Below are positions 1-16,924 of a DNA stretch of 16,924 bases, in pieces (position 1 is the first letter of the stretch; every line of letters begins with the position of its first letter). The notes beneath the pieces are model-generated. The model saw only the letters and a list, made by a program, of their open reading frames with translations. It did no database searches and was not told where the DNA came from. This DNA is from Candidatus Aminicenantota bacterium (GTDB taxonomy: Bacteria; Acidobacteriota; Aminicenantia; UBA2199): assembly GCA_020355945.1 (NCBI GenBank), contig CP070627.1:361184-378107 (forward strand), written 5' to 3'. The position numbers and the translations under genes were made by a program.

Positions 1-3000
1 CCAGGGGGGCGCTTTTTGAAAAAACTGCCCCCCTGAACCCCCCGCAAAAACTTCTTATTGAGAATCTATAGTTGGTTAACTCAGGCCTGTTTAAATATCC
101 CCTGGCTGTACCGCTTCCACCGATTACCAGACTGCCGGATACACCGATGGGCACCAGGTTATGGTATTTGTCAAGGATATAAACAGTTGAATGACTGATA
201 GGCTTGCCAATGGGAATGCCGGTTTTATAACTCTTTTCTACCGGGTGAAACGTGGAAAACGTTGTGTTCTCCGTAGGACCATACATGTGAAGAATTTTTA
301 GGTCTTTATACTTGTTTCTTATTTGATTCACGTAATGAGCCCGGACCAGGTCACCTCCCACCAGGAAATAATCAAGTCCTGAAAATATCTCCAGGTGCTG
401 CTCAACTAATTGATTGCATAACTGGGGAATGAGATGCAGTATGTTGATTTGATCTCTAACCAAAATTTCTTTTAATTTCTTGCCATCCAAAATAACATCT
501 TGCCCTGCTAAATATAACGTTAATCCATTTAAAAGAGGTCCCCAAATCTCAAAGGTGGTAATATCAAAAGAAATTGATCCGGTGAGCAGCAGCTTATCCC
601 CCGCTTGCCAACAGATATAATTGGTATCTTTTACCAATCTCACCACATTTCCATGTTCTACCAGTACACCTTTAGGCCTGCCAGTGGAACCGGAGGTGTA
701 GATGACGTAAGCCAGGTTCGCAGGGCTCACCTGGCAGGTTGAGGTTGAGGCTAAGGTTGAGAAAGATAATAGGCTAGAAATATCTATTATTTCTATAAAT
801 CTCTCCTCAACCTCAGCCTTAACCTTAACCTGAGTCTCTGGCGCAGCCAGCAAGATTTTGGCTTTGCTGTCGGTCAATATATATTTTATCCGTTCTTGTG
901 GATATTCCGGGTCAATGGGCAAATACGCCCCGCCGGCTTTTAATATCCCCAACATCCCGATAATCATTGCAAATGATCGTTCCACCATCAATCCCACCAG
1001 GGTATCCGGGCAACCACCTTTTGCCCGCAATCGGTGCGCCAGTTGGTGGGACTTTTCATTTAATTCCCGGTAGGTGAATTGCTTCTCATCCCGGATATCT
1101 TGCTCCCTACACTTTACAGCGATATGATCAGGAGTTTGGGATACTTGCTCTTCAAACCATTGATGGATGGTTTGCTCCCCGGGATAACCAAACCCGCTTT
1201 GATTAAAATCAACCAACAGTTGTTTTTTCTCCTCCGCAGATATAATTTCTATCTCCCGGATTTTCTTTCCCGGGTCTGCAATGATCGAGGATATGATATT
1301 CTTGAAATACTGACCGAATCTTACGATGGTTTCCCGGTTAAAAAGTTTTGAGCAGTATTCAACGCTAAAATGGAATTTTCCCCCCAATTCAATTGCAGAC
1401 AGGGAGAGATCAAATTTTGATATGATGTGTTCAAGAGGATAAGGCCCAATATTCAAACCTTTGATCCTGGTTTGGGGCATCTCTCCGGCGGAGGCAAAGG
1501 TTTCCCGGAAGGTAAACATCACATCAAACAACGGGTTTCGGCTCATATCCTTCTTTACATTTATCTTTTCCACCAGGTCTTCAAACTGGTAGTTCTGGTT
1601 CGCAAACGCCTCTAATGTGGTTTTTCTTACCTGGTGGAGAAACGCTGTGAAGGATTTTTCTCCTGATGGCTGGTTTCGCAGCGCCAGGGTATTGACAAAC
1701 ACCCCGACTATTTTTTCCAGGTCAGGATGATTTCGTCCGGCAATGGGTGTTCCCACCACGATATCTTCCTGGCTGCTTATTTTAGATAAAAATATGTTAT
1801 ACACAGCCAATAATACCATGAATGGGCTTGCACCTCCGGACCTTGCCCATTGGTTTAATGCGGTTGTTTCACCTGTATCCAGGTCAAAAGCGGTAATACC
1901 TCCTGCAAAACTTTGAACCACTGGCCGCCGATAATCAGCGGGCAGGTTTAATACCGGGATTTCTCCCTGGAACATCCCTAACCAATACGCTTCCTGCCGC
2001 TCCAGTGCTTCTTGCATCTTTTCACTATTCTGCCAGGAGGAAAAATCTTTGTACTGGAACTGCGGTGGTGGCAACGGATTTTCCCTGTTGTTTTTATAAG
2101 CATCATATAACATCAGGATTTCGCTGATCAATAAACGCATGGACCACCCATCAGAGATGATATGGTGCATATTTAATAAAAGCACATATTTGCTCTCATT
2201 GATATGGATTAATTTGACTTTAAATAAAGGTCCGTGTTCCAAGTCAAAAGGGGCAGCTGCTTCCCCGGATACTAAATTTTTTGCTTGTTTTCCCGGGTCT
2301 ACTTCTTTTCTTAGATCGATATATTCCAATTTAAACCCACTGATTTCAATATCATGGATTTTTTGCCTGGGTTCCCCTTCCTTCACAACAAACGTGGTTC
2401 GCAAGCTTTCATGACGTTTCACCGCAGTCTCATAGGCTTTCTCCAACACATTAATATTTAAATCCCCTTCCACCAGGTAGGGGATCAGTATGTTGTAAGC
2501 GATATGGGTTTCATCCAACTGGTGCAGGAACCACAACCGTTGTTGGGCCGGTGATAACTCATAGTCTTCCTGGTGCGCTGCAACCGTCAGCCCGGTGTAA
2601 TCCAGGGTCACCCCTTCTTCCAGGTAACCAAAGGATTTGGCCAATTGTATGGCCATTTCTCCCAGGAAATCCGTTTTATAATCTTTTTTCCATTTGTTCA
2701 ACACATTGGAGTCAATGTCCGAATGGGTGAAAAAGTTGAAATCCCCCAACATTTTCGATTCCGGGTATATACCGTTGGTCATTCTATTTGCGGTTTTCTC
2801 GTATACTTTGATCATGTCCTGGTTATATTGGATATGCAAAAAGTCACAAATTTCAGCCACCACAGCGTCCGGATGTTGAACAAGGTCTTCAAATTTAACC
2901 GCATGTTTTCGCTCAGTCGGTATGGAGTGAAGAAATTCCACGATATTTTGATGACTCACCTGCCATATCAATTCTGCCAATTCAATGACAGAAAAGTGGT

Positions 3001-6000
3001 GTTCATACCAGAACAATTGATCCATTTTGGCTTTTTCAAAGGAATGAATCATGGCATACGGATTTCGCTGCAAGTGAATATATTGAGGTTTTTCAAAGTA
3101 TTGTTCTGCCCGTTTTAAAACATCGATATCCAATGAATAGTAGGGGGATTTATCAACCAATCGGCGATGGCCCAACCACTCCTGCAGTGTCCGGTAAAAC
3201 TCCCGGGTGGTTACCCCCCGTTCTTCCATTGCCGTCATGATAGCTCCTGCCTCTTCCACAGGGCATTTTTTTATATCCATAATGGCCCGAATGGTTCCTT
3301 CGGTTAAATAACTGTATTTTTCGGAAATCACCCGTTTTCGATCTTGTAATGTATTGAATGACAGGAGTTCCAATTCAGGAGGAGCAAAAAGCCCGGGATT
3401 GCCGGCCAGGATGACCCGTAATAAGGTGGTACCGGAACGTGGGGCCGATAGGATAAAGACGGCTGAAGGATTTTTGGAACTTGAGACCTTCATTGGGGCC
3501 AGGGTGGGAATGAAGCGCCGGAATTCAGCCACTTTGGCAGCATCCACTTTGGTATGGGTTTCATTACGATAACCCTCAATCATCCTGGCCAATTCTTCAA
3601 TGGTAGGGGCTTCAAATAAAGCAGTCACATGGATAACTTCCGATAATTGTTTCTGGATTCGATTCACAGCACGAATACCTTTGATGGAATTGCCACCGAT
3701 TTCAAAGAAATTATCACGGCAGCCGACTTTCTCTACCCCCAACACCTGCTCCCAAATTTCTGCCAATTCCTTCTCCAAATCGGTACGGGGTGCAATGTAT
3801 TCTTTCCTGGTCTCAATTTCAATATCCAGCAGTGCGTTTCGATCCACTTTTCCATTGGGAGTTAAGGGTATTTCATCCACCGCTGCAAAATGGGTGGGCA
3901 CCATATAATAAGGTAAATCTTCCTGGAGATAATCTTTCATTGCCACGACATCTAACGTGCCATTGAACTTCAGGTAAGCACAGAGATGTTTGCTCTCTTG
4001 CCCGGTATTTGCTGCTGCTGTATTTTTAACCAGTACCACTGCCTGTTCCACCTTTGGGTGCTGGATTAATTTATTTTCGATTTCCCCTGGTTCGATGCGA
4101 AACCCTGCGATTTTTGCCTGGTGGTCTTTCCTGCCAAAGAACTCAATCACTCCGTCCGGAGTCCGCAGGCCCAGGTCACCGGTTTTATAAAGCCGATGTC
4201 CCTTTTTCCCGGGAAAAGGGTCGGTGGTAAATGTGTGCATGGTTTTTTCCACTTCATTTAAATACCCTCTTCCCACACCCGGTCCGGATACCACCAGTTC
4301 TCCTTTGATCCCCACCGGGCACAAATTCATGTGTTTATCCACCATGTATATATTAAGATTCTGTACTGTTTTACCAATGGGAATTCGTTCCGCCTCGGGA
4401 TCACGGTCCATGATATGATGGGTGATATCATCCGAGGCTTCGGTGGGGCCATAGGCATTCACCACTTTTAGCCCGGGAAACTGCTCAAATACCTTTTTTA
4501 CCAGGGGGGGTTTAACCTCTTCACCGGTGACCAGGAGGTAATGAATTTTTCCCAAATAGCTGTCTCCTGTCAAATCCAGGGTAGCAAAGATTGCCGACAG
4601 GTAAGAGGGGACCACCTCCAGGATGGTGACCCGGTCTTTCTCCAGGCGGGTTAAAAATTTGTCAGGCTCCCAAACCAGCCGGTTGGGATAAATAACCGTT
4701 TTCCCCCTGGCAGCTAATGCCGCAAAAAATTGCCAGACAGAAATATCAAAAGTATGGGGGGAATTCTGGGAAACAATACTTGCCGGGGTGATCTCAAGAT
4801 CGTTGATTTTGGCTTGCAGGTGGTTCATCATGCCCAGGTGCTCGATCATTGCTCCTTTTGGTGTCCCGGTGGAACCGGAAGTGTAAATAATATAGGCCAG
4901 GTTTTGTGAACAACCATGGTATTCCGGGGTCTGCACTGTCTTTTCCTGCTGCTGCTTCTCAAGGATATCCGGTTTAAGTATTTCCAGCCGGGGCGTTTGC
5001 CTCACCATGACTTCTTTGCGCACAAAGGCCAATCCTGGGATTTGTTCCAGGATATTTTCACCAGGTAATTCCCCCCCATTTTCTAATATATTTTTGATTA
5101 ATTCACTAAAGGTAAGCTCACCTTCCCCCCTGACCACAATATCGATATTCCTATCGTGCAAGAGGGTTTGATAATCACTGGTGGCATAAGGCCCGCCAAC
5201 AATAAGGGGCCCGCTAAATCCCCATTCCCGGATAATGGCAGCGGTTTGATGAAAAAAGTCTTTATAAAACGTCAGGGAGCGCGCTCCCACCAGGTGCGGT
5301 GCAAATTCCGCCAATAATTGTTTTAATTCGTCATAACTATCAAAATCAACCCGGGATTTGGCGATTTTACCGTTTATTTTGCCGGGAAACCGGTGATTGA
5401 GATAGGTTAACAAATACATCAGGCCCAAAGGGGGTTCCGACACATCATAAAGCATATGACTGTCTTTGCTGAAATACTGGGATAAATCCAGCAATAAAAC
5501 TTTCAGTGCTTTTGATTCCGGTTCTTGTTTAGGGAAACATTGCTTCATTTTTTCATGTAAACCGGGAACCTCGAAATGAAGGTCCTTTACAAAGGTGGCT
5601 TCCCCCAGTTGGTCCCGGGAAATGCCTGTGAATTCAAGTAAATCTGAAAAATTGTTAATATCTACAGGCAAATAGCTATTGTATTTTTGCGCCATTTCAC
5701 TTTCGGTTAATGACTTCATTTGCCAGGGCAGCACATGCAGCAGGCGTTCTTTAGATAAAAAGTATCCTGAGAAAAAATCGGTCTGGTATTTCAGGGTAAA
5801 TTGCTTATCAAAGGGTAAAGTTTCCGGGAGTTCATGGTAGGCAAGATTTTGCGACCGGGCAATGGCTTCTTTTGTAATACCGGCTTCAAGGGCCAACGCT
5901 TCCATATCCGTATTGGGGAAGATTTTCAAAATTTCCACGTAGGGAAAATGCAGCCATTTCTGTCTTTTGATAAATTCCAGGGTCATCAGGGCTTCCTTTT

Positions 6001-7798
6001 GGGTTTCTGTGGGAAAGCCCAGCATGGTGAACAGTTCCAGTATCACCTGGGGGTATTTTTTACATATATACCGGATATTTTCCTCTAATTTCTCCAGGTT
6101 CAGGTTTTTTTTGATCAATTTCTGCAGCCGTGGTGAAGCGGTTTCTAACGCCAACGCTAACCCCACGGTTCCGGCTTCGATCATTAAATCGATATATGCC
6201 TGGTCCAGTAGATCGCCCCGGACACCATTGGGGAAAAAGAGCTGGACCTCCATGCCATGATCAATGAGTAACCGGAAAAATTTCATGCTGTTCTTTCGAT
6301 TAAAATTGAAGATATCATCGATAAGGGCAAATCGTCGTATTCCCAGGTCATAATAGAGCTTCACCTCGTCAAAGATATTTTCTGCTTGACGGGGGATATG
6401 TTTTTTGGGCCAGATTTTGTGGCAGTAGGCACATTTATATGGACATCCCCGCGAGGCCTGGATGGATATGGCATGTCCCACCAGGGCCAGGCCGATGTTG
6501 TCACCATAGGTTTCATAGTTGATTAAACTTCGATCCGGGAAGGGGATCGAATCAAAATCAGTAATCTGTGGGCGGATACCGGTAATGACCACCCCCGCTT
6601 CACCGGTGCGAAGGTGCTGCAGCGTACGTAAACAGGTCTGCCTTTCTGCATCGCTGTCAGTGAGCAAAACCCGGGAACCTGAATCCGCTAAAACGTGCCT
6701 AATCCGCTGCACCGGGTCCTGGGGATCAAGGGGAATGTAAGCACTCCCGGCTTTCCAAACCCCAAGAATATTTTCCACCATTAATGGTTTCCGGTCCAAT
6801 AATATCCCTACCGGCTCTTCCTTTTGCAGACCCCGTTCTTTTAAAATTCCTGCCCAATGATGGGACCGTTGATTTAATTCCCGGTAGGTAATATGGTTTT
6901 CTTCACAGCCCAGCGCCACTCGGTGGGGAAACTCGGCTGCATACCCTTCAATAAATTGAAAGATAGTTTTATCTCTGGGAAAATCAGCTCGATTATTATT
7001 AAAACCAACAATTAACCGCTCTTTTTCTTCATTTGCCAAATAGGGGACCTCTGATATCTTTGTATTGACTTCCGACAGCAAATTCTCCAACATCCGGGCA
7101 AAATGCCTGGCCATTTGCTCTACATAAAAGGTCTCGCAGCCTGTGGCCGGGTATAAAATCTGCCCCCTGACCCGGTTCTCCTCCCGAATAAAGGAAAAAT
7201 GAAAACCGGTTGGTAAATTCTCAATGAACCCGTCATTATCACCATGAATATTTTTCAGGGAGCACTGCATATAAGAAATTGATGCATCAATAGGTATGTT
7301 GGCGGTACCGGACAAATAATCAATCAATTGATTAAAGGGATAATCCTGGTTTTCATAAGCCTCCAATACGGTTTGCCTGATGGTTAATAATAACTCTTTA
7401 AAGGTCATATTTTCATCAATATGATCATGAATCAACAGGAAATTATTGATGGTTTCTTCTGATACATTCAATTCATATACAGGGGATACCACAATACAAT
7501 TTTCGCAGTTGCTATATCGATAAACCAGGGATTTTAGCCCTGCCAATAAAATGATGTAAAGGGTAAGATCGGCTTGATTGCTTAAATTGAGCAATTGATG
7601 GGATAACTGAGCCGGGATGTCTATTCCTGTTTTCACCACATTATCATTGGAGGTGGGCTGCATTTTATTGGTAAAAAAGAGTTCGGTCTTCCCGATATCT
7701 TCCGGCAATCCTGCCAGTTTCTTTATCCAATATTCCCGCTGCCGGATGAATTTAGGGCTGAAGAGCAGCAGGTTTTCATTCAATTTATCTTCAAACAT
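1..7798 (-). CDS. large NRPS, 3'-partial: half-C - A[radical SAM-B12] - PCP - sulfotransferase - C - A(truncated)
   Basis: ATG at 7798; the frame stays open for about 2599 codons to the window edge. Domains by residue: 1-275, C-terminal lobe only of a condensation domain (no HHxxxDG; contains QDYPFNQLIDYL); A domain 288-1345 with A1 ITYREL (about 302), A2 WKAGSAYIPLDP (about 347), an insert 386-961 with radical SAM (C452-P-Y-K-C456-A-Y-C459) then B12-like domain, A3 YTSGSTGTPKG (from 972), A5 AYGPTEASDD, A8 GRKDHQAKIAGFRIEPGEIE, A10 [12 protein letters not shown] Ser1371 (FFEIGGNSI); sulfotransferase 1447-1705; C 1745-2180 with HHIISDG (His1878, His1879, Asp1883); final A from about 2205 with A1-A6 ending GYLNRPELT (about 2575). 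After that the reading frame enters a GC-rich repeat and A7-A10 are missing. The gene is therefore either disrupted or cut by an assembly or contig edge. Confidence 0.93.
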   Translation of the reverse strand, partial: MFEDKLNENLLLFSPKFIRQREYWIKKLAGLPEDIGKTELFFTNKMQPTSNDNVVKTGIDIPAQLSHQLLNLSNQADLTLYIILLAGLKSLVYRYSNCENCIVVSPVYELNVSEETINNFLLIHDHIDENMTFKELLLTIRQTVLEAYENQDYPFNQLIDYLSGTANIPIDASISYMQCSLKNIHGDNDGFIENLPTGFHFSFIREENRVRGQILYPATGCETFYVEQMARHFARMLENLLSEVNTKISEVPYLANEEKERLIVGFNNNRADFPRDKTIFQFIEGYAAEFPHRVALGCEENHITYRELNQRSHHWAGILKERGLQKEEPVGILLDRKPLMVENILGVWKAGSAYIPLDPQDPVQRIRHVLADSGSRVLLTDSDAERQTCLRTLQHLRTGEAGVVITGIRPQITDFDSIPFPDRSLINYETYGDNIGLALVGHAISIQASRGCPYKCAYCHKIWPKKHIPRQAENIFDEVKLYYDLGIRRFALIDDIFNFNRKNSMKFFRLLIDHGMEVQLFFPNGVRGDLLDQAYIDLMIEAGTVGLALALETASPRLQKLIKKNLNLEKLEENIRYICKKYPQVILELFTMLGFPTETQKEALMTLEFIKRQKWLHFPYVEILKIFPNTDMEALALEAGITKEAIARSQNLAYHELPETLPFDKQFTLKYQTDFFSGYFLSKERLLHVLPWQMKSLTESEMAQKYNSYLPVDINNFSDLLEFTGISRDQLGEATFVKDLHFEVPGLHEKMKQCFPKQEPESKALKVLLLDLSQYFSKDSHMLYDVSEPPLGLMYLLTYLNHRFPGKINGKIAKSRVDFDSYDELKQLLAEFAPHLVGARSLTFYKDFFHQTAAIIREWGFSGPLIVGGPYATSDYQTLLHDRNIDIVVRGEGELTFSELIKNILENGGELPGENILEQIPGLAFVRKEVMVRQTPRLEILKPDILEKQQQEKTVQTPEYHGCSQNLAYIIYTSGSTGTPKGAMIEHLGMMNHLQAKINDLEITPASIVSQNSPHTFDISVWQFFAALAARGKTVIYPNRLVWEPDKFLTRLEKDRVTILEVVPSYLSAIFATLDLTGDSYLGKIHYLLVTGEEVKPPLVKKVFEQFPGLKVVNAYGPTEASDDITHHIMDRDPEAERIPIGKTVQNLNIYMVDKHMNLCPVGIKGELVVSGPGVGRGYLNEVEKTMHTFTTDPFPGKKGHRLYKTGDLGLRTPDGVIEFFGRKDHQAKIAGFRIEPGEIENKLIQHPKVEQAVVLVKNTAAANTGQESKHLCAYLKFNGTLDVVAMKDYLQEDLPYYMVPTHFAAVDEIPLTPNGKVDRNALLDIEIETRKEYIAPRTDLEKELAEIWEQVLGVEKVGCRDNFFEIGGNSIKGIRAVNRIQKQLSEVIHVTALFEAPTIEELARMIEGYRNETHTKVDAAKVAEFRRFIPTLAPMKVSSSKNPSAVFILSAPRSGTTLLRVILAGNPGLFAPPELELLSFNTLQDRKRVISEKYSYLTEGTIRAIMDIKKCPVEEAGAIMTAMEERGVTTREFYRTLQEWLGHRRLVDKSPYYSLDIDVLKRAEQYFEKPQYIHLQRNPYAMIHSFEKAKMDQLFWYEHHFSVIELAELIWQVSHQNIVEFLHSIPTERKHAVKFEDLVQHPDAVVAEICDFLHIQYNQDMIKVYEKTANRMTNGIYPESKMLGDFNFFTHSDIDSNVLNKWKKDYKTDFLGEMAIQLAKSFGYLEEGVTLDYTGLTVAAHQEDYELSPAQQRLWFLHQLDETHIAYNILIPYLVEGDLNINVLEKAYETAVKRHESLRTTFVVKEGEPRQKIHDIEISGFKLEYIDLRKEVDPGKQAKNLVSGEAAAPFDLEHGPLFKVKLIHINESKYVLLLNMHHIISDGWSMRLLISEILMLYDAYKNNRENPLPPPQFQYKDFSSWQNSEKMQEALERQEAYWLGMFQGEIPVLNLPADYRRPVVQSFAGGITAFDLDTGETTALNQWARSGGASPFMVLLAVYNIFLSKISSQEDIVVGTPIAGRNHPDLEKIVGVFVNTLALRNQPSGEKSFTAFLHQVRKTTLEAFANQNYQFEDLVEKINVKKDMSRNPLFDVMFTFRETFASAGEMPQTRIKGLNIGPYPLEHIISKFDLSLSAIELGGKFHFSVEYCSKLFNRETIVRFGQYFKNIISSIIADPGKKIREIEIISAEEKKQLLVDFNQSGFGYPGEQTIHQWFEEQVSQTPDHIAVKCREQDIRDEKQFTYRELNEKSHQLAHRLRAKGGCPDTLVGLMVERSFAMIIGMLGILKAGGAYLPIDPEYPQERIKYILTDSKAKILLAAPETQVKVKAEVEERFIEIIDISSLLSFSTLASTSTCQVSPANLAYVIYTSGSTGRPKGVLVEHGNVVRLVKDTNYICWQAGDKLLLTGSISFDITTFEIWGPLLNGLTLYLAGQDVILDGKKLKEILVRDQINILHLIPQLCNQLVEQHLEIFSGLDYFLVGGDLVRAHYVNQIRNKYKDLKILHMYGPTENTTFSTFHPVEKSYKTGIPIGKPISHSTVYILDKYHNLVPIGVSGSLVIGGSGTARGYLNRPELTNYRFSIRSFCGGFRGAVFSKSAPL
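2..35. repeat. GC-rich inverted repeat at the truncation of the last gene
   Basis: Perfect 9-base arms CAGGGGGGC (2-10) and GCCCCCCTG (27-35) enclose an inner TTTTT/AAAAA stem, giving one long hairpin. A second C-run with GCAAAAACTTC follows to about position 54. NRPS similarity of the overlapping gene stops by about position 73. The T-run lies in the loop rather than after the stem, so it does not look like a Rho-independent terminator. It looks more like a dispersed repeat element. Confidence 0.75.
735..832 (-). repeat. in-frame inverted repeat of 6-bp units in the A2-A3 loop
   Basis: The left arm 735-761 (CAGGTTGAGGTTGAGGCTAA and onward) and the right arm 806-832 are inverted copies matching at 24 of 27 positions. 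All three differences are purine transitions on the same arm orientation. The arms are made of GAGGTT/AAGGTT/AGGCT hexamer-like units, and the spacer is AT-rich with its own short palindromes. It translates as a Val/Lys/Glu-rich then Ser/Thr-rich linker just before LAYVIYTSGSTG of the final A domain. Confidence 0.8.
2684..3460 (-). other. sulfotransferase domain between PCP and C
   Basis: About 260 residues following the PCP. FILSAPRSGTTLLRVI carries the 5'-phosphosulfate-binding loop (RSGTT, Arg1454), and LQRNPYAMIHSF (about 1576-1587) matches the 3'-phosphate-binding region of PAPS-dependent sulfotransferases. RRLVDKSPYYSLD and the HAVKFEDLVQHP block also fit the family. It would move a sulfuryl group from PAPS to a hydroxyl or amine of the carrier-bound chain. 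Sulfotransferase domains inside assembly lines are known (for example in curacin-type polyketide termination, where sulfation primes decarboxylative release). Here it is followed by another C-A module, so in-line tailoring rather than release is more likely. Confidence 0.85.
4916..6643 (-). other. radical SAM domain plus B12-binding-like domain inserted between A2 and A3
   Basis: The host A domain reads LLTDSD (378-383), then about 585 residues of other sequence, then LAYIIYTSGSTG. In the neighbouring uninterrupted A domain the same motifs are about 45 residues apart. Insert order: linker with FDSIPFPDRSLI (about 413-424); radical SAM barrel with the CxxxCxxC cluster motif at 452-459, FALIDDIFNFN, ALALETASP and MLGFPTET; a helical connector; then a Rossmann domain with LKVLLLDLSQYF (from 765), EPPLGLMYLLTYL, IVGGPYATSDY (868) and VVRGEGELTFSELI. 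The canonical B12 ligand motif DxHxxG is not evident, so binding of cobalamin is inferred only from family likeness. Such enzymes often do methylation or other radical chemistry at unreactive carbons; the likely target is the substrate activated or tethered by this module. Confidence 0.88.
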
Positions 7799-7803
7799 AT
7801 TTT

Positions 7804-7809
7804 ACCTCC
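7804..7809 (-). promoter_or_regulatory. ribosome binding site GGAGGT for the last NRPS gene
   Basis: On the minus strand GGAGGT stands 5 bases before the ATG at 7798, within the 13-base gap after the radical SAM gene stop (TAA 7814-7812). It is close to a consensus Shine-Dalgarno and fixes the start of the half condensation domain, showing that the missing N-lobe is not a mis-called start. Confidence 0.8.
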
Positions 7810-7811
7810 GG

Positions 7812-9494
7812 TTAAAACTTGAATTCCACATCGTATTTCTCAATTAAATTATTTTTATTATTAAAGATATCATCTGTTGGCCTGGCTGCCTGGCAAGATT
7901 TTACGATTTGTTTAATGATCTCAAAACTGGCCTCTGTTGGTGATGGGTTTAAAATTTTTTCTCGGATCCCGTTGTTAAAGCTTTTCAAAAAGCCTTTCAC
8001 CTGTTCCGGGTTCATTCCCCGGTGAACCAGGTGCCAGAAATTATCAAAATCAAAGTTATATTGAGGAATCCAGGTGGATTTTTTAATGGATAAGAATATA
8101 TCTTCGATTAAATCACAGGCGGTGGGGGAATCCATTGTGGCATGGCTCCACTCAAACCGTTCGCCCTCCAGTTGATATTTCTCTCTCTCACGCCATATGG
8201 GGGTAATGGGATCACAATACCATAATTGTGCCCGGTAAAAATCCAGTCCACTATTTTCGATTAATCGTATGGTATCCTGTACGGTTTCATGGGTTTCGCC
8301 CGGGAATCCAATGACAAAACTGCTGAAAGTAACGATTTCATACTCTTTCAATAAAGCGATTCCTTTCAAGTATTCTCCTGTTTTTGTACCTTTATTCATA
8401 TTTTTAAGTATTTGATCATTCCCGGATTCAAGTCCCAAATAGACCCCTTCACAACCGCTTTCTTTCATTAATTCCACTGTTTCCCTGTCGGCAAATTGGC
8501 ATCTGAAATAGGAGTGCCATTGGAATTTATATTTGTTTTTGATGATCATGCGGAGGATGTCTTTATATCTTTTTAAAGGGACATTAAAGGTGTCATCAAT
8601 AAAATGCACGCATTTAACCGTTCCTGGTTTATCCAGTTGATCCAATTCGTTTTCAATTGCTTCCACCGGGGCGATTTGATATTTGCCGGCGTGTTGGGGG
8701 AAGCCGCAAAAGGCACAGGAAAAGGGGCAGGATACGGCGGTCCTGACATTTACATATTCCCCCAGCCCATCAGCCAACAAATCCCAATTCACCATATTGT
8801 CAGCCAAACGATTATTTTCTTTGACAATAGGGGTGGAGACATAGCCATTGTCAGTCTTATAATAGATATTATTGATTTGATCAACCGGCTGTTTGTTTTT
8901 TAAATGATGAATTATTTTTTCCAGGGTGGTTTCTCCCTGGGAGCTATTGACATAAAAATCAGCCCCGATGGATTTAAACAGATAGTGCAGTTCCCCATCA
9001 TCGAGAATTTGCACCTGGGTGGCAACAAAAGGCCCCCCGATGATGATTTTTGTATAGGGATTGTATTTTTTTATAAAATTTACGATTTCAAGAATAGGAA
9101 ATACCGCCACATAAAAAGTGGTGGTGATTGCCACTGCCAGGACATCATTCTCTGCCAATTTCTTTGCCAGCACTCTTTTTTCGTCCCGGAACGAATTGAC
9201 ATAATCATAGGTGAATCCCCTCCGACTTAAATAAGACACCAGGTAGGCAATGGAAGCACTAAAGGTTTCTCCCATGCGCAAGGGTTTGGCTGAGGCTTTT
9301 GAATTGGCTGCATCGGAGCAAAATAAGTTGAAGACTTCCGAGATTGTATAGGGATGGTTATTATATTCGATAAAGTTTAACGCCAAATCCCGGTAGGCAC
9401 CCGAATGAATACCCATTTTCTTTACGGTTTTCTCGTATTCCCTGAAATCCATTTCATTATGACCAATTAAAAAACAATCAATTGCTTTATTCAT
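7812..9494 (-). CDS. B12-binding/radical SAM protein, PhpK-like
   Basis: 560 residues from the preferred ATG at 9494, or 565 from an ATG at 9509. I prefer 9494 because GAGG lies 9 bases before it, while the upstream ATG has GAGG only 2 bases away, and because MNKAIDCFLIGHNEMDF begins like its relatives. Residue numbers below use the longer form. N-terminal half: B12-binding-like Rossmann region with IIIGGPFVATQ (158-164). Radical SAM cluster motif: C261-P-F-S-C265-A-F-C268, followed by GFPQHAG. Later family features: FIDDTFNVP, GVYLGLESG and VIGFPGET. From memory the whole protein resembles the PhpK family (TIGR04479), founded on the radical SAM P-methyltransferase of phosphinothricin biosynthesis. 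No phosphonate genes are visible here, so methylation of a carbon on the peptide or a precursor is at least as likely. It lies between two NRPS genes in the operon (gaps 22 and 13 bases). Its C-terminus, VEFKF, resembles that of the upstream NRPS. Confidence 0.93.
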   Translation of the reverse strand: MNKAIDCFLIGHNEMDFREYEKTVKKMGIHSGAYRDLALNFIEYNNHPYTISEVFNLFCSDAANSKASAKPLRMGETFSASIAYLVSYLSRRGFTYDYVNSFRDEKRVLAKKLAENDVLAVAITTTFYVAVFPILEIVNFIKKYNPYTKIIIGGPFVATQVQILDDGELHYLFKSIGADFYVNSSQGETTLEKIIHHLKNKQPVDQINNIYYKTDNGYVSTPIVKENNRLADNMVNWDLLADGLGEYVNVRTAVSCPFSCAFCGFPQHAGKYQIAPVEAIENELDQLDKPGTVKCVHFIDDTFNVPLKRYKDILRMIIKNKYKFQWHSYFRCQFADRETVELMKESGCEGVYLGLESGNDQILKNMNKGTKTGEYLKGIALLKEYEIVTFSSFVIGFPGETHETVQDTIRLIENSGLDFYRAQLWYCDPITPIWREREKYQLEGERFEWSHATMDSPTACDLIEDIFLSIKKSTWIPQYNFDFDNFWHLVHRGMNPEQVKGFLKSFNNGIREKILNPSPTEASFEIIKQIVKSCQAARPTDDIFNNKNNLIEKYDVEFKF

Positions 9495-9516
9495 ACCTTT
9501 ATTCCTCATTACCTCA

Positions 9517-12500
9517 TTAAAAATTAAATTCGACTTTCATACTCTTTTTTTTGTCTTGATCGGTTGTTGGGTCTTTAATGGCTAGCCTGGTTTTCTTTTG
9601 TTTGATCAGTTCCCTTCTTTCCTGGTCACTAATCATTTCCAATTGCGATAATTTTTTTTCGGGGGTTTTTATCACTTCCGATAACAGTTTTTTAAAGTAG
9701 CTCACCAGTCGCTCTATGGTTTGGTGTTTGAACAGCTTTGTCTTGTAGCTAAAAAAGGCAAACAGCCTGGTTCCTGTGTCACTCACATTTAACTGCAGGT
9801 CAAATTTCGATGTTTTGAATTCATGTTCAACCTGTTTTTGGTTTTTGTTCTCTTTTTCTTTAGCTGGTGTTGCCCCTGGTGCTTCTTCAATTTTTGCATA
9901 TCGAAAGACCACATCAAACAGTGGATTTCGGTTCAATTGCCTATTCACAGCCAACTTATCCACCAGGTCTTCAAATGGATAGTCCTGGTTTTCAAAGGCA
10001 TTAAGGGCTGCATGTTTCACTTCCCGGAGAAATCCTTTAAAGGATTTATCTCCTTCGGGTCTATTCCTGACAGCCAGCATATTAACAAACATCCCGATGA
10101 TTTTCCGCAAGTCTGCATGCCTGCGTCCCTCCACCGGGGTTCCCACAACTATATCCTCTTGACCGGTTATTTTAGACAACAGGACATTGTAGAGGGCCAA
10201 CAATATCATGAACATGGAGGCTCCTTCTTGTGCAGCCAGGTGACTCAATGACTTTGTATCATTGTCGTGGATGTCAAATATCACTATATCCCCTTCAAAG
10301 CTTTGGGTTCCGGGTCTTGGGTAATCTGTGGGTAAATGAATGCAGGGGATACTGTCTTTAAAGCTGTCCAGCCAATAGTTCTCTTGCTGTTGGCCGGTTC
10401 CCTTTTCCTTCTCAAAATATTGCCATTGGGAATAGTCTTTATATTGAAGCCTGAGTTCAGTTAATCTTTCTCCCCTGTACAGGGCCAGGAACTCCCGGAC
10501 ATAAATCCCCAGGGAAACCTGGTCGGAGATAATGTGATGCATGTCTACCATAAGGATATGCTTTTCTTCATCCGCTTTTACTATTCCCACCCGCAGCAGT
10601 GGCGCTTGCGAGAGATCAAAAGAACGGATGAAGCTCTTTTCGTGGGGCACATCATATTCGATCTCAAATTCCACTTTATCGTGTACCCTCTGGACCAGTT
10701 CTCCCTGGATTATCTCAAATGACGTTCTTAAGACTTCATGCCGGTGTACCATTTTGGTGAAGGTCTTTTCAAACCTGGTAATATCAACTTCTCCAGCCAG
10801 GGTTCTCACCATTGGCATATTATAGGCAATATTTTTTTGGTCAAGCTGCCACAAAAAATACAGGCTCTCTTGTGCGGAGGATAAGGGATAGTACTCTTTT
10901 TTCTCTGTGGGTTCGATAGCAATGAATCGATCCACCGCACTGCTGTCAATATGCCGGATATGGTCTGCCAATGCTCTTATGGTAGGGGTTGTGAATACCA
11001 CTGTTAATTCCACCTTCACATTCAAGGCGCAATGGATTTGAGAGATCAATAAAATGGCTTTTAACGAATGCCCACCCAGGTGGAAAAAGTCCGAATCGAT
11101 CCCGATGTTGTCTTTTTCGATTCCCAGGACTTCAACCCATATTCCTGCTAACGTTTCCTCCAATTGGTCTCGGGGGGCAATATCATCTTCTCCTGCTTTG
11201 AGTTCAGGTTCTGGCAGCGCTTTCCTGTCTATTTTTCCATTGGGTACCAGGGGAATTTGCTCTATTGGTATAAAATAGGATGGGATCATATAATCAGGCA
11301 ATTTCCCGGCCAAATATTCCCTTAATTCCGACACCGAAAGCTCAATGTCCGAAACAATATATGCACATAGGTATTTATCGCCTTGTTCCCACTCTTTTTG
11401 TATGACAACGACATTCTTTATATCAGCATGCTTCAACAATTGAGCTTCGATTTCTCCCAGCTCAATACGAAAGCCCCGTATTTTTACCTGGTGGTCGATG
11501 CGACCTAAGAATTCAATATTGCCGTCCGGCAGCCACCGGGCCAAATCACCGGTTTTGTAAAAACGGTCATTGGTCATTGGACATTGATTATCGACGGAAT
11601 TGGTAGATTTAGAGAGCTTTTTAAAAGAACTAATGACGAATGACGAATGACCAATGACAGCTCTTAAAAATTTCTCTGCGGTTAATTCCGGGTCATTGAG
11701 ATACCCCCTGGAAACTCCTTCCCCACCGACACATAATTCTCCCGCCACCTTAACCGGCTGGAGATAATGGGCTTTATCAATAATAATTGCCGTAGAATTG
11801 GCTATAGGACTGCCAATGGGAATGTAGGTGTACTCTTTATCGATCAAAAAGGTTGTGGAGAAGGTGGTATTTTCCGTGGGGCCATACCCGTTGATCACCT
11901 TCAATGCAGGAAACCTGGTCTTTACTCGATTGATGTGAGCTGGTGATAACGCATCCCCTCCCACCAACAGGTTGGTTAACCCGGCAAAAATCTCCACATC
12001 TGCTTGCATCATCTGGTTGAACAAGGGAGAGGTCATCCATATGGTGCTGATGTGATATTTCTTTATGGTCTCTTTCAATCGTTTCGGGTTTAGTATTTGG
12101 CCTTTATCCAGTAGGTACAGGGTTAAACCGTTTAACAATGCACCCCATATCTCAAAGGTAGAGGCATCGAATTCCAGGGCTCCGGTTTGTAAAATCCTCT
12201 GGTTTTCTTTAAATTCCACGTAGTTGGTATTTTTAACCAGCCGGACAACATTGCGATGCTCCACCATCACGCCCTTTGGCTTCCCGGTGGAACCGGAGGT
12301 ATACATGATGTACACCAGGTTGGCTGCTGAGGCAGCCTGCCTGGAGGTCGAGGTTAACGTAAAAGTTGAGGAGGATTTATCCACTTTAATGATTTGACTC
12401 TCCGGCGCAGCCAGCAAGATTTTTGAGGGGCTGTTACTGCTATCGGTGAGCAGGATATCGATATGACCATCCTTCATCATATATCGCCGACGTTCACCAG

Positions 12501-14403
12501 GATACTGCGGATCAATGGGCAAATACGATCCCCCGGCTTTCAGTATTCCCAGCAGCCCGATGGCCATTAGCACGGAACGATCCACCATGAGCCCCACAAT
12601 GGTATCGGGCCGTGCACCTTTTTCTTTTAACTGGTGGGCCAATTGATCGGATTTATTATTTAATTCCCGGTAAGAAATATAGGTCATATAGGTCCTATAG
12701 GTCCTATATTTTATCGCCAATGGTCCGACAACGGCAATATTATCCGGGGTTTGTTCCGCCTGCCGTTCAAATAATTCATGGATGGTCTTCTCCTTTGGAT
12801 AGGATACCGCGGTATCATTAAAATCATATAATAACTGTTTTCTCTCTTCTTCCGGTATTATTTCTATTTCCGAAAGTTTTATATCATGATTGGTAAGGAT
12901 TGCCGAAATGATGTTCTTGAAATATTGAATAAATCTTTCCATGGTATCTGCTTTAAACAATTTGGTACAGTATTCAAATGAAAAGGCCAGTTTCTCTCTC
13001 CCTGTAAAAGCAAAGAGAAAGAGATCGAATTTGGCTGTGCGGCGTTCATAGTTATAGGTTTTGGCCTTTAAGCCCGGAGGTTCTTCTTTTTCTTTGACAT
13101 TTTTTCCTGGTACACCTGGTACAGCATTATTGCCGATCTCAAACATCACATCGCACAAGGGGTTGCGGCTCAAATCCCTTTCCAGGGCTACTTTTTCCAC
13201 CAGGTCTTCAAAGGGGTATTCCTGGTTATCAAAGGCTTTTATTGTATTTTTTTTCACCTGGGCGAGAAACTCTGCGAAGGTTTTCTCTCCCAGTGGATAA
13301 TTCCGCAAAGCCAGGGTATTGACAAACATGCCAATGATGGGTTCCAGGTCGGCGTGTCTTCGACCTGCGGTGGCAGTGCCCACCACGATATCCTCCTGGC
13401 CGCTTAATTTGAATAGGAATACATTGTAAACAGCCAGTAACAGCATAAACCGTGTCACCCCTTCCCTCCGGGTCACCTGGTCAAGCCTCCCGGATTGCGC
13501 CTGGCTTAAATCAAAAAACCTGACACTCCCTTCAATGCTCTGGACCATTGGCCGGGGATAATCCGTGGGTAAATGTAATACCGGGATTCCCCCCTGGAAC
13601 TCCCTTAGCCAATATTTCTCTTGCTCCTTGAGCAATTGCTGCACTGTTTCACCCTGCTGCCATTGGGAATAGTCCTTATATTGGAGCCTTAAGGCAGGTA
13701 ATGGCTTCCCGCTAAAAAGAGATAAAAAATCTCCTATCAATATACTGTGGGAAACGCCATCGGATATGATGTGATGCATATCCACCATGAGCACATGTCT
13801 TAAAGGTGCTATTCTTACCAGCCCCACCCGCAGCAAGGGTGCTTGACTTAAATCAAATGAGCGAACAAAATTTCTTATGATCCCATTATCTGACTCATGG
13901 TATCCGATTTTAAAATCCATTTCCCCTGGGGCATGTACGCTTTGCCGGGGCACGGTCCCTCCCATATGGAACGATGTCCTTAAACTTTCATGCCTGGCAA
14001 CCAATGCCCTGAAGGTTTTCTCCAACCTCTTTATCTCCACTTCCCCTTCCAATTCAATCATTTGAGGTACGTTGTAGGCCGTATTCTCTATATTCATCTG
14101 CTGGATAACGTACAGCCTTTGTTGAGGGGATGACATCCGGTAATATTCTTTCTTTTCGGTGGGTTCGACGGATGCATATTTCTTTAGTTTATCTTCACTC
14201 CTTTGTAAAAATTCAATGATTTCATCTTTTTGATCTTTTAATTCCTTCACTAACTGGGGGTGTAATTTCCCTTTAGGCGCATGAATCTTTAATTGACCAT
14301 TGACAAGGCGAACTTTTATTCTTTCTTGTTTTAGCCTGGTTAATAACGATAATACACGAGATGTTTTAGATTTTTTAAAGGGGCTGCCGGAGTCTGTATT
14401 CAT
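9517..14403 (-). CDS. NRPS: TubC-type docking domain - C - A (valine-like) - PCP - C
   Basis: 1628 residues. Residues 14-66 resemble the TubC N-terminal docking (beta-hairpin) domain, with a basic [17 protein letters not shown] stretch. First C domain about 85-520, with HHIISDG (His210, His211, Asp215). A domain about 540-1060: A1 ISYREL, A2 [13 protein letters not shown]3 [12 protein letters not shown]4 [11 protein letters not shown]5 [11 protein letters not shown]6 [14 protein letters not shown]7 [10 protein letters not shown]8 [21 protein letters not shown]9 LPDYMIP, A10 VPNGKIDR. Pocket residues read by eye are D-A-F-W-L-G-G-T-F-K, close to the published valine signature. PCP Ser1113 (FFHLGGHSL). 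Second C about 1169-1600 with HHIISDQ: the catalytic His and Asp are kept but Gly is Gln. The protein stops just after this C domain with a short Lys-rich tail ending VEFNF, so the acceptor module must be on another chain. Three in-frame DNA repeats sit in loops of the A domain. Confidence 0.95.
11566..11658 (-). repeat. in-frame inverted repeat of 7-bp units between A6 and A7
   Basis: Left arm 11566-11586 is built from TCATTGG-type heptamers. The right arm 11638-11658 is its inverted counterpart (AATGACG and AATGACC units). The arms match at about 18 of 21 positions and are separated by about 50 bases, so the RNA could fold as a hairpin. It encodes an extra linker (roughly [13 protein letters not shown] to PMTND) between PELTAEKFL and RFYKTGD, about 30 residues longer than a usual A domain here. 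Heptameric repeats of this style occur in several bacterial groups, for example the STRR repeats of cyanobacteria. Confidence 0.8.
12341..12373 (-). repeat. decayed AACCTC-type hexamer repeat in the A2-A3 loop
   Basis: Plus strand contains GGAGGTCGAGGTTAACG and, shortly after, AAGTTGAGGAGG, which look like degraded GAGGTT units. They occupy the same A2-A3 loop as the better-preserved repeat at 735-832 of the last gene. Both loops are flanked by an identical 20-base stretch (12404-12423 and 840-859). Encodes the Ser/Thr-rich stretch before [11 protein letters not shown]. Confidence 0.45.
12678..12704 (-). repeat. three tandem 9-bp units, in frame, before motif A1
   Basis: Plus-strand units are TATAGGTCA, TATAGGTCC and TATAGGTCC, followed by a partial TATA. 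In the protein they give RTY-RTY-MTY just before ISYREL of the A domain. In other A domains of the window this position holds an ordinary few-residue strand. The unit is a multiple of three, so copy-number change keeps the frame. Confidence 0.85.
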
Positions 14404-16924
14404 ATGGTTATCTCCTCTTCTTCTTCATTTGCCTCTATTTCTTTTTGATCTTCTATCCAATCAACTACGGTGGCCAGGGAGGCGATTTCTTTGATGAAGG
14501 GCATTTCAAATACTTCAGCCAGGGATAATCTCAAGTCCAGTTCTTTCTGAACCCTGGCTACCATTATGGCTGCATTTAATGAGTGCCCTCCGATTTCGAA
14601 AAAGTTAGTATGGATGCCGATGGCATCTTTTTCGATTCCCAACACCTCTGCCCATATTTTTGCCAATTTTTCTTCTACTTCATTCCGCGGTGCGATAATC
14701 GCGGCTTCTTCTCCTTGTTCTATTCCAGGCCCGGGAAGTGCCCGCATATCTACTTTTCCATTGGGGGTCAAGGGAATCTTTTCCAATTGGATAAAATAGG
14801 CAGGAACCATATAATCCGGCAATTCTTCCTGTAAATACTCTCTCAACTCTGAGACCAGGGAATTTGACCGGGATTTTCTCTTATTACTTTCAAAAGTGTA
14901 AGGAATGTAAGACGAAGCGTAAGGGCCGTTTCCATATAATAAGGCCGCGTAGAGCTCTGCCAGTCCGGCATTAATGCTGTAAGACGCTGTGGATAATACA
15001 GTCCTGGTTTTTTTACCGGGATTGGCCTGCCAATGATACGCATAAACCCTGGAAAAATCCAGGACATCTTTATGACTCTCTATGACATATTCTTGCGCTT
15101 CAAGGTCTCGAGGTGGCCCTGGAGAATATAACAAGTAGGCGGCTTGATCAGGGGCTATTTCAATGGCGGGATTCTCACCTGCAATACCCGGATCGCTGTC
15201 ATTTAAACCATCCGGACTGCTAATATTAATCACTTTAATATTCTTGTTGACTTTGTCCCTGATTTTTTCTGCTAATGGGTGATATTCATTATCGGTCAAT
15301 ATGATTCGTGATTCCGAATCTTCCAATATATGAGTTAATCTTTCCCGGGGCACAGTGGGGTCAAGGGGGACATATGTTTTCCCCGATTTTAACGCACCCA
15401 TGACCCCGGCGGCCATGGGGATATCATGGTTAAGCAATAAAGCGATGGTTTGCCAATGGTTTTTATTTTTTGATTTTTTTTCCTCTTTAATTTCAATGGC
15501 AGTTGGCACTAGTTTTGTCTTTTTTATCTGCTCTTCCGGTGTTTTTCTTTTCTTTGCCCCGGTTACTCCACAGAGGGGACAATTGGGATCAGGTTCTACT
15601 TTTAATTCTTCCAGGAAGTTTCCACTCCAACCCACATCCCAATCAAATCCTTGTTCTTTGCAGGTTCCCAGGAAATGTTCACTGAAAAGATGTGTCATGG
15701 CTTTATAGCCAGGGGTAAGTACCAGGTCCGGGGTTGCCCCTCTCTGGTTAAAATAAAAGAATTTATTGTAGGCGGGTTTATCAAATCCCAATAAGATCTT
15801 TAAGGCTTCATTAACGATTATTCCTGCACTGATGAAAAGGGAGGTGGATACCACGGGTAATGGGTTTTTACTATAATTTTCAACATAGTTTTGCATGCCT
15901 GTGACAATGGCTTCCAGCTTTTTCTTATCAAATATACAGTGATAGCAAGGAGTATGGGGGGTATGACATACCATGGCATAGGCATTGATGTCGGTCATGG
16001 CTAAGATAAGATGAGGGATACCTTTTGCTACTGCATATTGTGATAAAATGAATTTATCTGCCGGGCCATCAAACATATCGAAGATAATAGCCGCATCTCC
16101 TACCTGTTCGGCTATATTTTCCCGGGTCAATTTTCCTGTATAGGGGATGACGTTTATATTGGGATTGGTTTTACTTATAGTCAGTTTTGCGGATAGAGCT
16201 TTGTTGATGCCCAACCGCTCTTCATCATGTAAGAACTGGCGATTTAAGTTGCTTAATTCTACTTGATCAAAGTCACAAACTTTGATGGTGCCTAAGCCCA
16301 CCAGGGCCAGTTGTGTGATAGTGGGGGAGGCCCCACCTCCGGCACCGGCCACAAAAACCGTGGTGCCTTTTAGTTTTTCCTGGGCTGCCATTCCCCAGCC
16401 ATGAAGCAGCATCTGCCGTTTATACCTGGTCCGTTCACTCTTTGATAATTTGTATTTATCATCATATTCCTTTAATATTTTATGGGCTACCTGGTTGGCA
16501 TATCGGTTCAGGGCCTGGTAAGTCAAGGGTTGACCATCTGATTCCAGGATAATTTTATCGGGGTTCCTGGTAACCATGCTCTCAAAACAGTCAACAATGG
16601 ATGGCGGCGGTTGGTCCTTGTTCAATCCTGGTAAATCCTGCCAGGGACCTGCAAAATTCTCTTTCCCGGCAATTTCCTTTAAATTGATTAATTTTTTATT
16701 CGCTGCGGGTGGTACTGCATCTTTTATTTTCTCTCCTTTTGGTACGATATAAGCGCATAGATATTTATCTTTATTTTCTTCCTCTGCATCTTTTACCACC
16801 ACCAGGGCCTCTTCCACTTGTTTATGTTTCATTAATCGGCTCTCGATCTCTTTCAATTCGATGCGGTATCCCCTGACTTTAACCTGGGTATCGATACGAC
16901 CTAAGAATTCAATGGTTCCGTCAG
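14400..16924 (-). CDS. NRPS protein, 5'-partial: interrupted adenylation domain (nested E1/ThiF-like domain) plus PCP
   Basis: The frame is open from the right edge (first full codon at 16922), giving 840 visible residues. A TTG at 16856 is internal, not the start, because A-domain motif A8 ([16 protein letters not shown]) precedes it. Order from 16922: A8 and the segment ending KYLCAYIV (about residue 60); a 629-residue insert; then VSELREYL, A9 LPDYMVP, A10 PLTPNGKVD, and a PCP with FFEIGGHSL (Ser781 carries the phosphopantetheine arm in this family). The insert has an A1-like motif (LTYQALN), a full ThiF/MoeB/E1-like domain, an A2-like motif ([13 protein letters not shown]) and a ruined A3 ([16 protein letters not shown]). 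It ends before A5. The host A domain may still be active, as its A1-A7 lie outside the window. The inner copy is almost certainly dead as an amino-acid activator. The C-terminus is very acidic (EEEEEITI) and overlaps the next gene by ATGA, suggesting translational coupling and docking to it. Confidence 0.93.
14412..14417 (-). promoter_or_regulatory. ribosome binding site for the 1628-residue NRPS gene, inside the upstream gene
   Basis: On the minus strand GAGGAG lies 8 bases before the ATG at 14403. It is encoded by the Glu-rich tail of the upstream gene. The upstream TGA (14402-14400) overlaps the ATG as ATGA, a typical translational-coupling arrangement. Confidence 0.7.
14856..16742 (-). 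other. 629-residue insert between A8 and A9 of an adenylation domain
   Basis: The next gene's uninterrupted A domain serves as an internal reference: there KYLCAYIV and VSELREYL are separated by 6 residues. Here the same two motifs are separated by 629 residues. The A8-A9 junction is a known site for auxiliary-domain insertion in interrupted A domains, where methyltransferases are the usual cargo. The cargo here is different: the start of another A domain (A1), an E1/ThiF-like domain, and then A2 to roughly A4 of that second A domain. A3 is decayed and A5-A8 are missing. Boundaries are set by the flanking motifs and are good to a few residues. A less simple alternative is two adjacent A domains merged by two separate deletions. 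Confidence 0.85.
15558..16442 (-). other. E1/ThiF/MoeB-like adenylating domain embedded in the NRPS
   Basis: E1-like enzymes activate a carboxylate as an acyl-adenylate, often on a small carrier protein, and commonly pass it on to sulfur or another nucleophile. Visible family features: an N-terminal YKRQ-type stretch; a Rossmann nucleotide loop reading GAGGGAS (the family consensus is GxGGxG, so the last Gly is Ala); [14 protein letters not shown]; a Lys-containing helix after LGINK; and DGPADK where MoeB/ThiF proteins have an Asp-containing DNxxTR-like motif. Both zinc CxxC pairs are present (CYHC and CPLC), spaced as in ThiF/MoeB. The domain is full length (about 295 residues) with an extra segment before the second CxxC. 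Nothing looks truncated, so it is probably folded and zinc-bound. Its substrate is unknown. Confidence 0.85.

Follow-up and report, generated by a model that had tools for sequence, protein, structure and literature searches.

Several adenylation (A) domains of nonribosomal peptide synthetases (NRPSs) are interrupted by a second catalytic domain. In TioN, TioS and KtzH, a methyltransferase lies between motifs A8 and A9 or between A2 and A3 of the A domain, and methylation, oxidase and ketoreductase insertions have been reviewed as occurring mostly at A8–A9 and sometimes at A2–A3 (PMC11355689). Here, we describe a module with another kind of insert. In a 16,924-nucleotide stretch from a Candidatus Aminicenantota bacterium (contig CP070627.1, positions 361,184–378,107; hereafter, the window), an NRPS A domain is interrupted by an E1 domain of the MoeB/ThiF type, which is itself embedded in a fragment of another A domain. 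As in the described systems, a catalytic domain occupies A8–A9 (the window and classes IV and V, below) or A2–A3 (class III), and it may modify a residue that has already been loaded, a behaviour reported for the methyltransferases (PMC11355689). Unlike those systems, the insert is an E1 adenylating enzyme, accompanied in the window by its own A-domain shard; other modules carry their E1 domain in A1–A2 or N-terminally. The E1 insertion adds a further type of insert to the interrupted A domains.

Three further groups of enzymes invite comparison. Firstly, the ThiF-like adenylyltransferases PaaA, GrcB and MccB, which modify ribosomally synthesized and post-translationally modified peptides (RiPPs), share the E1 fold and active site and have Glu or Asn targets (PMC12250964). 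PaaA acts on two Glu residues of its precursor; GrcB joins Glu35 to Cys39 as a thiolactone in the presence of ATP and Mg, with the activated group described inconsistently as a C-terminal carboxylate and as a side chain; and GrcB works beside radical SAM enzymes (PMC12250964). The last point recalls the second insert of many E1 modules below, which gives B12-binding or radical SAM matches in the two examples scanned. The RiPP enzymes carry an N-terminal RiPP recognition element (RRE) and differ from the embedded E1 domains in being separate proteins that act on ribosomal peptides, whereas here the E1 domain is fused into an NRPS with a peptidyl carrier protein (PCP). A related enzyme, TyzB, cyclises an N-acyl tyrosine with ATP (PMC12479983). 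Secondly, the pyridine-2,6-dithiocarboxylic acid (PDTC) and quinolobactin operons belong to small-molecule pathways and also pair an E1 gene with one for an AMP-acid ligase; they differ in having ThiS-like and JAB partners, and no carrier-protein fusion is described in the parts of the source consulted (PMC1779556). Thirdly, the embedded E1 domains are distinguished from MoeB, ThiF and Uba4 by scores of about half the NCBIfam cut-offs, by the lack of a nearby ubiquitin-like candidate (judged by pattern), and by a stretch of their own between the two CxxC pairs.

No description of an E1/ThiF domain in an NRPS was found in the open-access literature, judged mostly from titles and abstracts, and none is present in the parts consulted of PMC12250964, PMC5384830, PMC12479983 and PMC1779556. 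An E1-like mention in PMC5384830 was set aside, as it refers to a pyruvate dehydrogenase subunit and not to a ubiquitin-type E1.

An E1 domain nested in an A fragment within an A domain

In its own reading direction, the open frame carries the order A8–[A1'–E1–A2'..A4']–A9–A10–PCP, according to Pfam and an A-domain profile built in-house from two intact A domains (Table 1; primes denote motifs of the inner A fragment). Pfam places ThiF (PF00899) at residues 167–393 (3.5e-49), recognizes AMP-binding (PF00501) as a fragment only (residues 491–664, profile positions 47–231 of 384), and matches AMP-binding_C in two stretches, the best at residues 25–70. By the usual naming, LPxYMVP is motif A9, so that the insertion site is A8–A9. 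The host A domain is thus interrupted in the established sense: A8 precedes the insert and A9–A10 follow it in the window, while the complete host A core is seen in a related locus, L001. Within the window, the host is represented upstream of the insert by its A8 part only, and the substrate code lies outside. An AlphaFold2 model of the window protein has a predicted template modelling score (pTM) of 0.65.

This layout had been proposed in a preliminary description, made from the sequence alone, which noted that a single frame holds two adenylate-forming folds of unrelated type ahead of a PCP: a host A domain split at A8–A9 by the N-terminal part of another A domain, itself split between A1' and A2' by an E1 domain with both CxxC pairs. 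Pfam, the A profile and the places of the motifs bear out the nesting and the A8–A9 split; profile and similarity identify the two halves of the inner fragment; both CxxC pairs (CYHC and CPLC) are present; and the insert spans 14859–16733 by profile, against the 14856–16742 first proposed.

Table 1. Features of the window, by position (residue numbers refer to the frame 14400–16922)
Feature	Position	Strand	Residues	Basis or remark
NRPS module, 3' part (open frame)	14400..16922	(-)		840 codons; 5' end beyond the window
Host A domain ahead of insert	16734..16922	(-)	1–63	A-domain profile
Motif A8 of host	16854–16901	(-)		
A1' shard	16461..16628	(-)	99–154	N-terminal scrap of second A domain; similarity
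Motif A1'	16485–16526	(-)		
E1 domain, MoeB/ThiF-type	15558..16460	(-)	155–455	profile; adenylation residues present
E1 Arg finger	16413–16427	(-)		
E1 GxGG	16323–16346	(-)		
E1 NLNRQ	16236–16250	(-)		
E1 Lys	16197–16211	(-)		
E1 FDxxD	16068–16082	(-)		
E1 first CxxC (CYHC)	15936..15947	(-)		Cys in 160/160 rows
E1 second CxxC (CPLC)	15570..15581	(-)		Cys in 160/160 rows
A2'–A4' shard	14919..15533	(-)	464–668	
Motif A2'	15357–15389	(-)		
Motif A3', degenerate	15111–15143	(-)		
End of A domain	14706..14858	(-)	689–739	
Motif A9 (LPDYMVP)	14802–14822	(-)		
Motif A10 (NGKVD)	14748–14762	(-)		
PCP of the module	14478..14672	(-)	751–815	Pfam PF00550, 4.7e-15
Next NRPS protein	9517..14403	(-)		TubC_N docking–C–A–PCP–C; Pfam
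B12-binding + radical SAM protein, free-standing	7812–9509	(-)		between NRPS genes
Radical SAM + B12-binding insert	5099–6457	(-)		inserted A2–A3 in ORF 2..7798; PF04055 2.6e-17, PF02310 1.8e-07
Sulfotransferase domain	2822–3460	(-)		between PCP and C of NRPS, ORF 2..7798; PF13469, 8.6e-29

E1 insertion recurs in NRPS modules of many contigs

A search with the E1 part returned 48 proteins: that of the window (P0001); P0002–P0044, which join E1 to A, PCP or condensation (C) domains; P0045, a cut copy; and P0046–P0048, other E1 proteins. A second search was made among longer proteins, in which 120 of 140 matches were used, so that the class counts below are lower bounds. After dropping 16 locus frames that repeated others or listed proteins, and excluding window frames other than P0001, at least 162 E1-bearing NRPS modules were counted, the window's included. 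These are counts of proteins and frames and not of independent events, and some remaining locus frames may repeat listed proteins. The fusion is thus found well beyond the genome in which it was first noticed.

By insertion site, the modules fall into five classes: (i) an intact A domain with E1 at its N-terminus (class I, 2 modules), (ii) E1 between A1 and A2 (class II, 47), (iii) E1 between A2 and A3 (class III, 21), (iv) an A8–A9 insertion in which the profile sees no A shard (class IV, 31), and (v) an A8–A9 insertion with an A shard, nested by profile as in the window (class V, 57, the window included). Four further modules are cut or unclear. Misassembly was considered as a source of the nested layout and rejected, given its presence in 57 modules from many contigs.

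The window's genome likely contains at least six E1 modules (P0001, P0009, P0012, P0064, P0120 and P0152). The five of these with a source name come from Candidatus Aminicenantes. Other source taxa are Acidobacteriota, Kapabacteria, Bacteroidales, Omnitrophota, Wukongibacter, Ruminiclostridium hungatei and Clostridiaceae M8S5. Among species the modules are rare, occurring in 4 of 142 genomes of one class surveyed (that of genome G001) and 2 of 291 sampled genomes of another (that of G005), where five of the six positive genomes are the ones that led to the choice of class.

Of the 88 class IV and V modules, 48 have a second insert, at least 350 residues long, in the A domain that carries the E1. 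In L001 this insert matches B12-binding, and in P0149 it matches both radical SAM and B12-binding. In the doubly interrupted A domains of L001 (5576–13240) and of the L099 and L103 frames, an insert of ~600 residues lies near A1 and the E1 domain in A8–A9. A predicted model of the L001 module, built from 23 sequences, has a predicted local distance difference test score (pLDDT) of 78.6 and a pTM of 0.49, with domain placement uncertain; its top Foldseek matches are NRPS A-domain structures.

The embedded E1 domain retains the residues of an adenylation site

The E1 domain displays the hallmarks of the E1/ThiF superfamily—a glycine-rich nucleotide loop, NLxRQ, an Arg finger, and the Lys and Asp of the adenylation site. 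Conservation reaches 158–160 of 160 E1 domains at the positions aligned with R14, K86 and D130 of MoeB (presumably its catalytic residues), at the NLNRQ Arg and at the four Cys, and each Cys site of the double CxxC, which marks the MoeB/ThiF branch, is Cys in all 160. The nearest solved folds are MoeB and ThiF, and the stretch between the CxxC pairs is specific to the embedded family. The NCBIfam equivalog cut-offs for MoeB/ThiF are not reached (TIGR02356, 133.2 of 275.25 bits; PRK05690, 130.4 of 266 bits).

No column of the crossover loop (residues 331–372, 160 rows) exceeds 20% Cys, so a Cys-type E1, working through a thioester or acyl-disulfide, was rejected. No RRE appeared in the Pfam scans; these elements are divergent, and no search with an RRE model was made.

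The preliminary description had offered two targets for the E1 domain: a carrier-bound chain, or a partner carboxylate, with thiocarboxylate, amide or succinimide-type chemistry as examples. The second target, with its thiocarboxylate chemistry, receives no support from the loop or from the gene neighbourhood. In the window and 18 loci, which together span 298 kb including overlaps, a pattern test detected no open reading frame (ORF) of 55–130 residues ending in GG except for three frames inside large genes; no homology search for ThiS/MoaD was made. In the five free-standing loci described below, there is a single GG-ending frame, ~0.8 kb downstream in L016 and opposite a longer gene. A rhodanese was likewise missing from the Pfam scans made.

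Host A domains of four classes carry mainly acidic specificity codes

The nine variable letters of each host's specificity code were compared with a reference set of 26 codes that covers 19 amino acids and is drawn in part from PMC12283262 and PMC10391617, and a residue was called when at least six of nine letters agreed. In classes I, III, IV and V (111 modules), 90 hosts were called: 58 as Asp, 16 as 2-aminoadipate (Aad), 15 as Glu and one as Asn, with at least seven letters matching in 81 of the 90. Ten codes were complete but uncalled (six of them DARH-type), and 11 were incomplete. Among 78 E1-less A domains from the same proteins and loci, 43 were called (Gly 18, Pro 7, Ser 4, Cys 4, Glu 4, Val 2, Ile 2, Asp 2), 17 were uncalled and 18 incomplete; at least two of these 78 rows (P0045 and L094, both incomplete) are tails of cut E1 modules. 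With distinct codes counted once, the split is 19 to 0 for E1 hosts versus 5 to 18 for E1-less domains (Fisher 1e-7, a value made too small by kinship).

All 16 Aad hosts stand at the protein start (three possibly cut); a C domain lies upstream of 46 of the 58 Asp hosts (9 unclear, 3 at the start) and of 13 of the 15 Glu hosts. Where the module following an Aad-coded E1 starter is visible (P0119, P0134 and P0152 are examples of such starters), it is Gly-coded in 12 of 15 cases.

In the window's E1 clade, the codes are DLTKVGHIG (L001), DLTKAGHIG (L099) and a partial KAGHIG (P0003 and P0004), with no code for P0002. Because the complete-code relatives L001 and L099 carry Asp codes, the window's host A domain likely loads Asp. 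Glu codes occur in six nested modules outside this clade.

Phylogeny and free-standing relatives

In a tree of 73 E1 tips, the embedded E1 domains group with those of a free-standing trio operon (support 95), and the embedded domains alone have a support of 58. The window's E1 falls with those of L099, P0004, L001, P0003 and P0002 (support 100). In a tree of 72 A domains, 41 of them with E1, the E1 hosts lie in at least three separate clades: Asp, Glu, and a sister pair of DPRH/DARH and DAMH, whose union has support 91. E1-less members occur in the Asp, Glu and DAMH clades as well. P0034–P0036 and P0027/P0030/P0032 are sister A domains (support 94), yet they bear E1s of different clades at different sites, which suggests that E1 has apparently been paired with A domains for particular residues more than once.

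The free-standing relatives were found among 73 loci outside the NRPS set (L007–L079). An AMP-ligase, a carrier protein and an E1 stand in a row in three of these (L012, L016 and L019); 67 have E1 alone, L071 has a separate A match, and in L079 a carrier is matched weakly. Two more trio loci came from a survey of 3 of 23 genomes: L116, and L115, in which the contig ends within the ligase. The order ligase–carrier–E1 is therefore seen in all five loci of the nearest free-standing E1 group. These operons, from metagenome-assembled genomes (MAGs) of Syntrophobacterales type, resemble the embedded E1s in tree grouping, in the C-terminal part with its second CxxC, and in the adjoining AMP-ligase and carrier genes; they differ in consisting of three genes and in not being NRPSs. 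The free-standing trio is a possible picture of the ancestral state.

Three side observations concern these relatives. An aldehyde:ferredoxin oxidoreductase-like gene, recognised by eye, lies upstream of the trio in L016, L019 and L116. The carrier proteins of L012 and L016 end in a CEEC tail. In L046, from a Desulfobacterales MAG, a ligase–polyketide synthase gene (2655–9674; KS, DH, KR, ACP) is followed by an E1 gene (9941–10735).

The inner A fragment appears to be a remnant

The inner fragment might have been a second working A domain. This was rejected: the A3' consensus is absent from the window's shard (SPGPP versus SGSTG) and from six aligned relatives, and A5' to A8' are missing from the window's shard, so it should not be active. 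In the window's AlphaFold2 structure, pLDDT is 79–94 across blocks of residues 101–160 (A1' shard) and above 90 across blocks of residues 491–570, the confidently modelled A2' core.

When classes IV and V are set aside, the A domains closest to the shard belong to class II (top score, 147 bits for P0012), whereas the top E1-less A domain scores 81.6 bits. In comparisons of the window with six relatives, the E1 domain is 69–85% identical. The corresponding values are 31–44% for A1', 48–61% for the A2' core (at most two gaps) and 32–51% for the A3'/A4' part (2–60 residues missing), and 67–79%, 57–71% and 38–76% for the host's A8 region, its A9–A10 region and the PCP, respectively. The resemblance to class II, together with the higher identity of E1, leads us to propose that the E1 of a class II A domain was apparently moved into the A8–A9 linker of another A domain, taking the N-terminal half of its former host along, and that this half-domain, its A2' core excepted, now appears to be decaying. 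On this sequence evidence, we favour the view that the nesting is what remains of an A domain that once carried the E1, and not a second working one.

A possible role: activation of a second carboxylate

E1 enzymes adenylate carboxylates. Our preferred reading, to which we assign a probability of about 0.42, is that the embedded E1 adenylates the side-chain carboxylate of a carrier-bound residue and thereby drives ring closure or cross-linking. The E1 would act on the residue carried by the neighbouring PCP; since the α-carboxylate is tied up as the carrier thioester, the target would be the carboxylate on the side chain of Asp, Glu or Aad, and a nucleophile of the chain would then attack the side-chain adenylate to give a ring or cross-link. 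With an N-terminal Aad or Glu, the free α-amine could serve as nucleophile and produce a lactam cap; with Asp inside the chain or at its end, attack by a side chain, by an amide nitrogen or by the N-terminus could yield an isopeptide, lactone, thiolactone or imide. Ring closure or cross-linking is favoured because of the precedents of PaaA, GrcB and TyzB. The suggestion that E1 acts on the carrier-bound chain, the first of the two targets offered earlier, has gained ground from the trio gene order (five of five) and the acid codes in four of five classes; the outcome may be a succinimide, a lactam or an amide.

Several points weigh against this reading. Some concern the codes: six acid-coded A domains (4 Glu, 2 Asp) among the 43 called lack an E1; DLTKVGHVGK is reported for both Asp and Asn, with most cases favouring Asp, DAQDLGVVDK for both Glu and Gln, and an Aad code shares 80% identity with one for Asn (PMC12283262). 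The reference list is drawn only in part from the papers cited, and the window's own host code lies beyond its end. In class II, which makes up 47 of the 162 modules and is most like the window's shard, 43 of 44 complete codes match no reference code: most read DAMHVGGVT, or SAMHDGGVI without Asp235. The remaining complete code reaches six of nine (Gln), and three more are incomplete. Others concern the chemistry: the E1–PCP contact is not modelled (pTM 0.65 and 0.49), and the ligase of L012, the only trio ligase scanned, scores best as an acyl-CoA ligase, below model cut-offs. As a separate observation, Asp235 is missing from the class II hosts P0026, P0029, P0037, P0038, P0041 and P0153 (SAMHDGGVI or SAVHDGGVV), which may load something other than an α-amino acid.

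The same codes and active site would also fit a reading in which the side-chain adenylate is captured not by the chain but by an amine, ammonia or thiol from outside, giving an amide or conjugate, as the E1 fold alone leaves the nucleophile unfixed. We regard this as unlikely, given that the relatives PaaA, GrcB and TyzB close rings or cross-links and that Asn and Gln could be loaded directly.

Peptide C-termini are common E1 targets, and E1 might instead adenylate another carboxylate, either the end of a released chain or a separate peptide attacked by the PCP-bound amine as an alternative condensation. No upstream C domain is visible in class I (2 modules) or class III (21 modules), which would suit such a scheme. 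The scheme fits poorly with the 46 Asp and 13 Glu hosts that do have one, leaves the link to acid codes unexplained, and seems to us improbable.

No better placed, and if anything slightly worse, is sulfur transfer, in which E1 would adenylate the C-terminus of a ThiS/MoaD-like protein whose thiocarboxylate gives sulfur to the loaded residue. MoeB and ThiF are the nearest solved folds, and E1-rhodanese, ThiS-like, JAB and AMP-acid ligase genes occur together in the PDTC and quinolobactin operons (PMC1779556); set against this are the lack of a GG-ending candidate in the window and 18 loci (pattern test, frames inside large genes not counted), of a rhodanese match in the Pfam scans made, and of a conserved crossover-loop Cys, although a carrier might be encoded at some other place in the genome. 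Finally, the decay of the surrounding shard might suggest an inactive or structural spacer, an idea made very improbable by active-site residues kept in 158–160 of 160 domains and by an E1 identity of 69–85% against 31–61% for the three shard parts.

If side-chain activation is correct, the E1 insertion could, still more tentatively, be described as a second-carboxylate adenylation domain: a single module would form two acyl-adenylates of one amino acid, the A domain acting on the α-carboxylate and E1 on the β-, γ- or δ-carboxylate, with lactams, lactones, thiolactones or isopeptide branches formed on the carrier. E1 would then be a mobile cassette with several points of entry into Asp, Glu and Aad A domains, one that has brought half of a former A domain with it on at least one occasion and that in many Asp modules is joined by a further large insert (B12/radical SAM where scanned).

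Neighbouring genes in the window

The remainder of the window carries further NRPS genes on the same strand (Table 1). Beside the protein that follows the E1-bearing module, these features include a radical SAM/B12-binding insertion into another A domain, a sulfotransferase domain, and a free-standing B12-binding/radical SAM protein.

Implications

Side-chain-linked and cyclic nonribosomal peptides are usually attributed to release domains or to tailoring enzymes that act after assembly. If our preferred reading is true, activation of a second carboxylate on the assembly line would be a new route to such peptides. Genome-mining programs could then predict rings and branches that are perhaps missed now, and engineers would gain a portable domain, seen at several insertion sites. 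In these modules, ubiquitin-type activation and nonribosomal synthesis are joined in one polypeptide.

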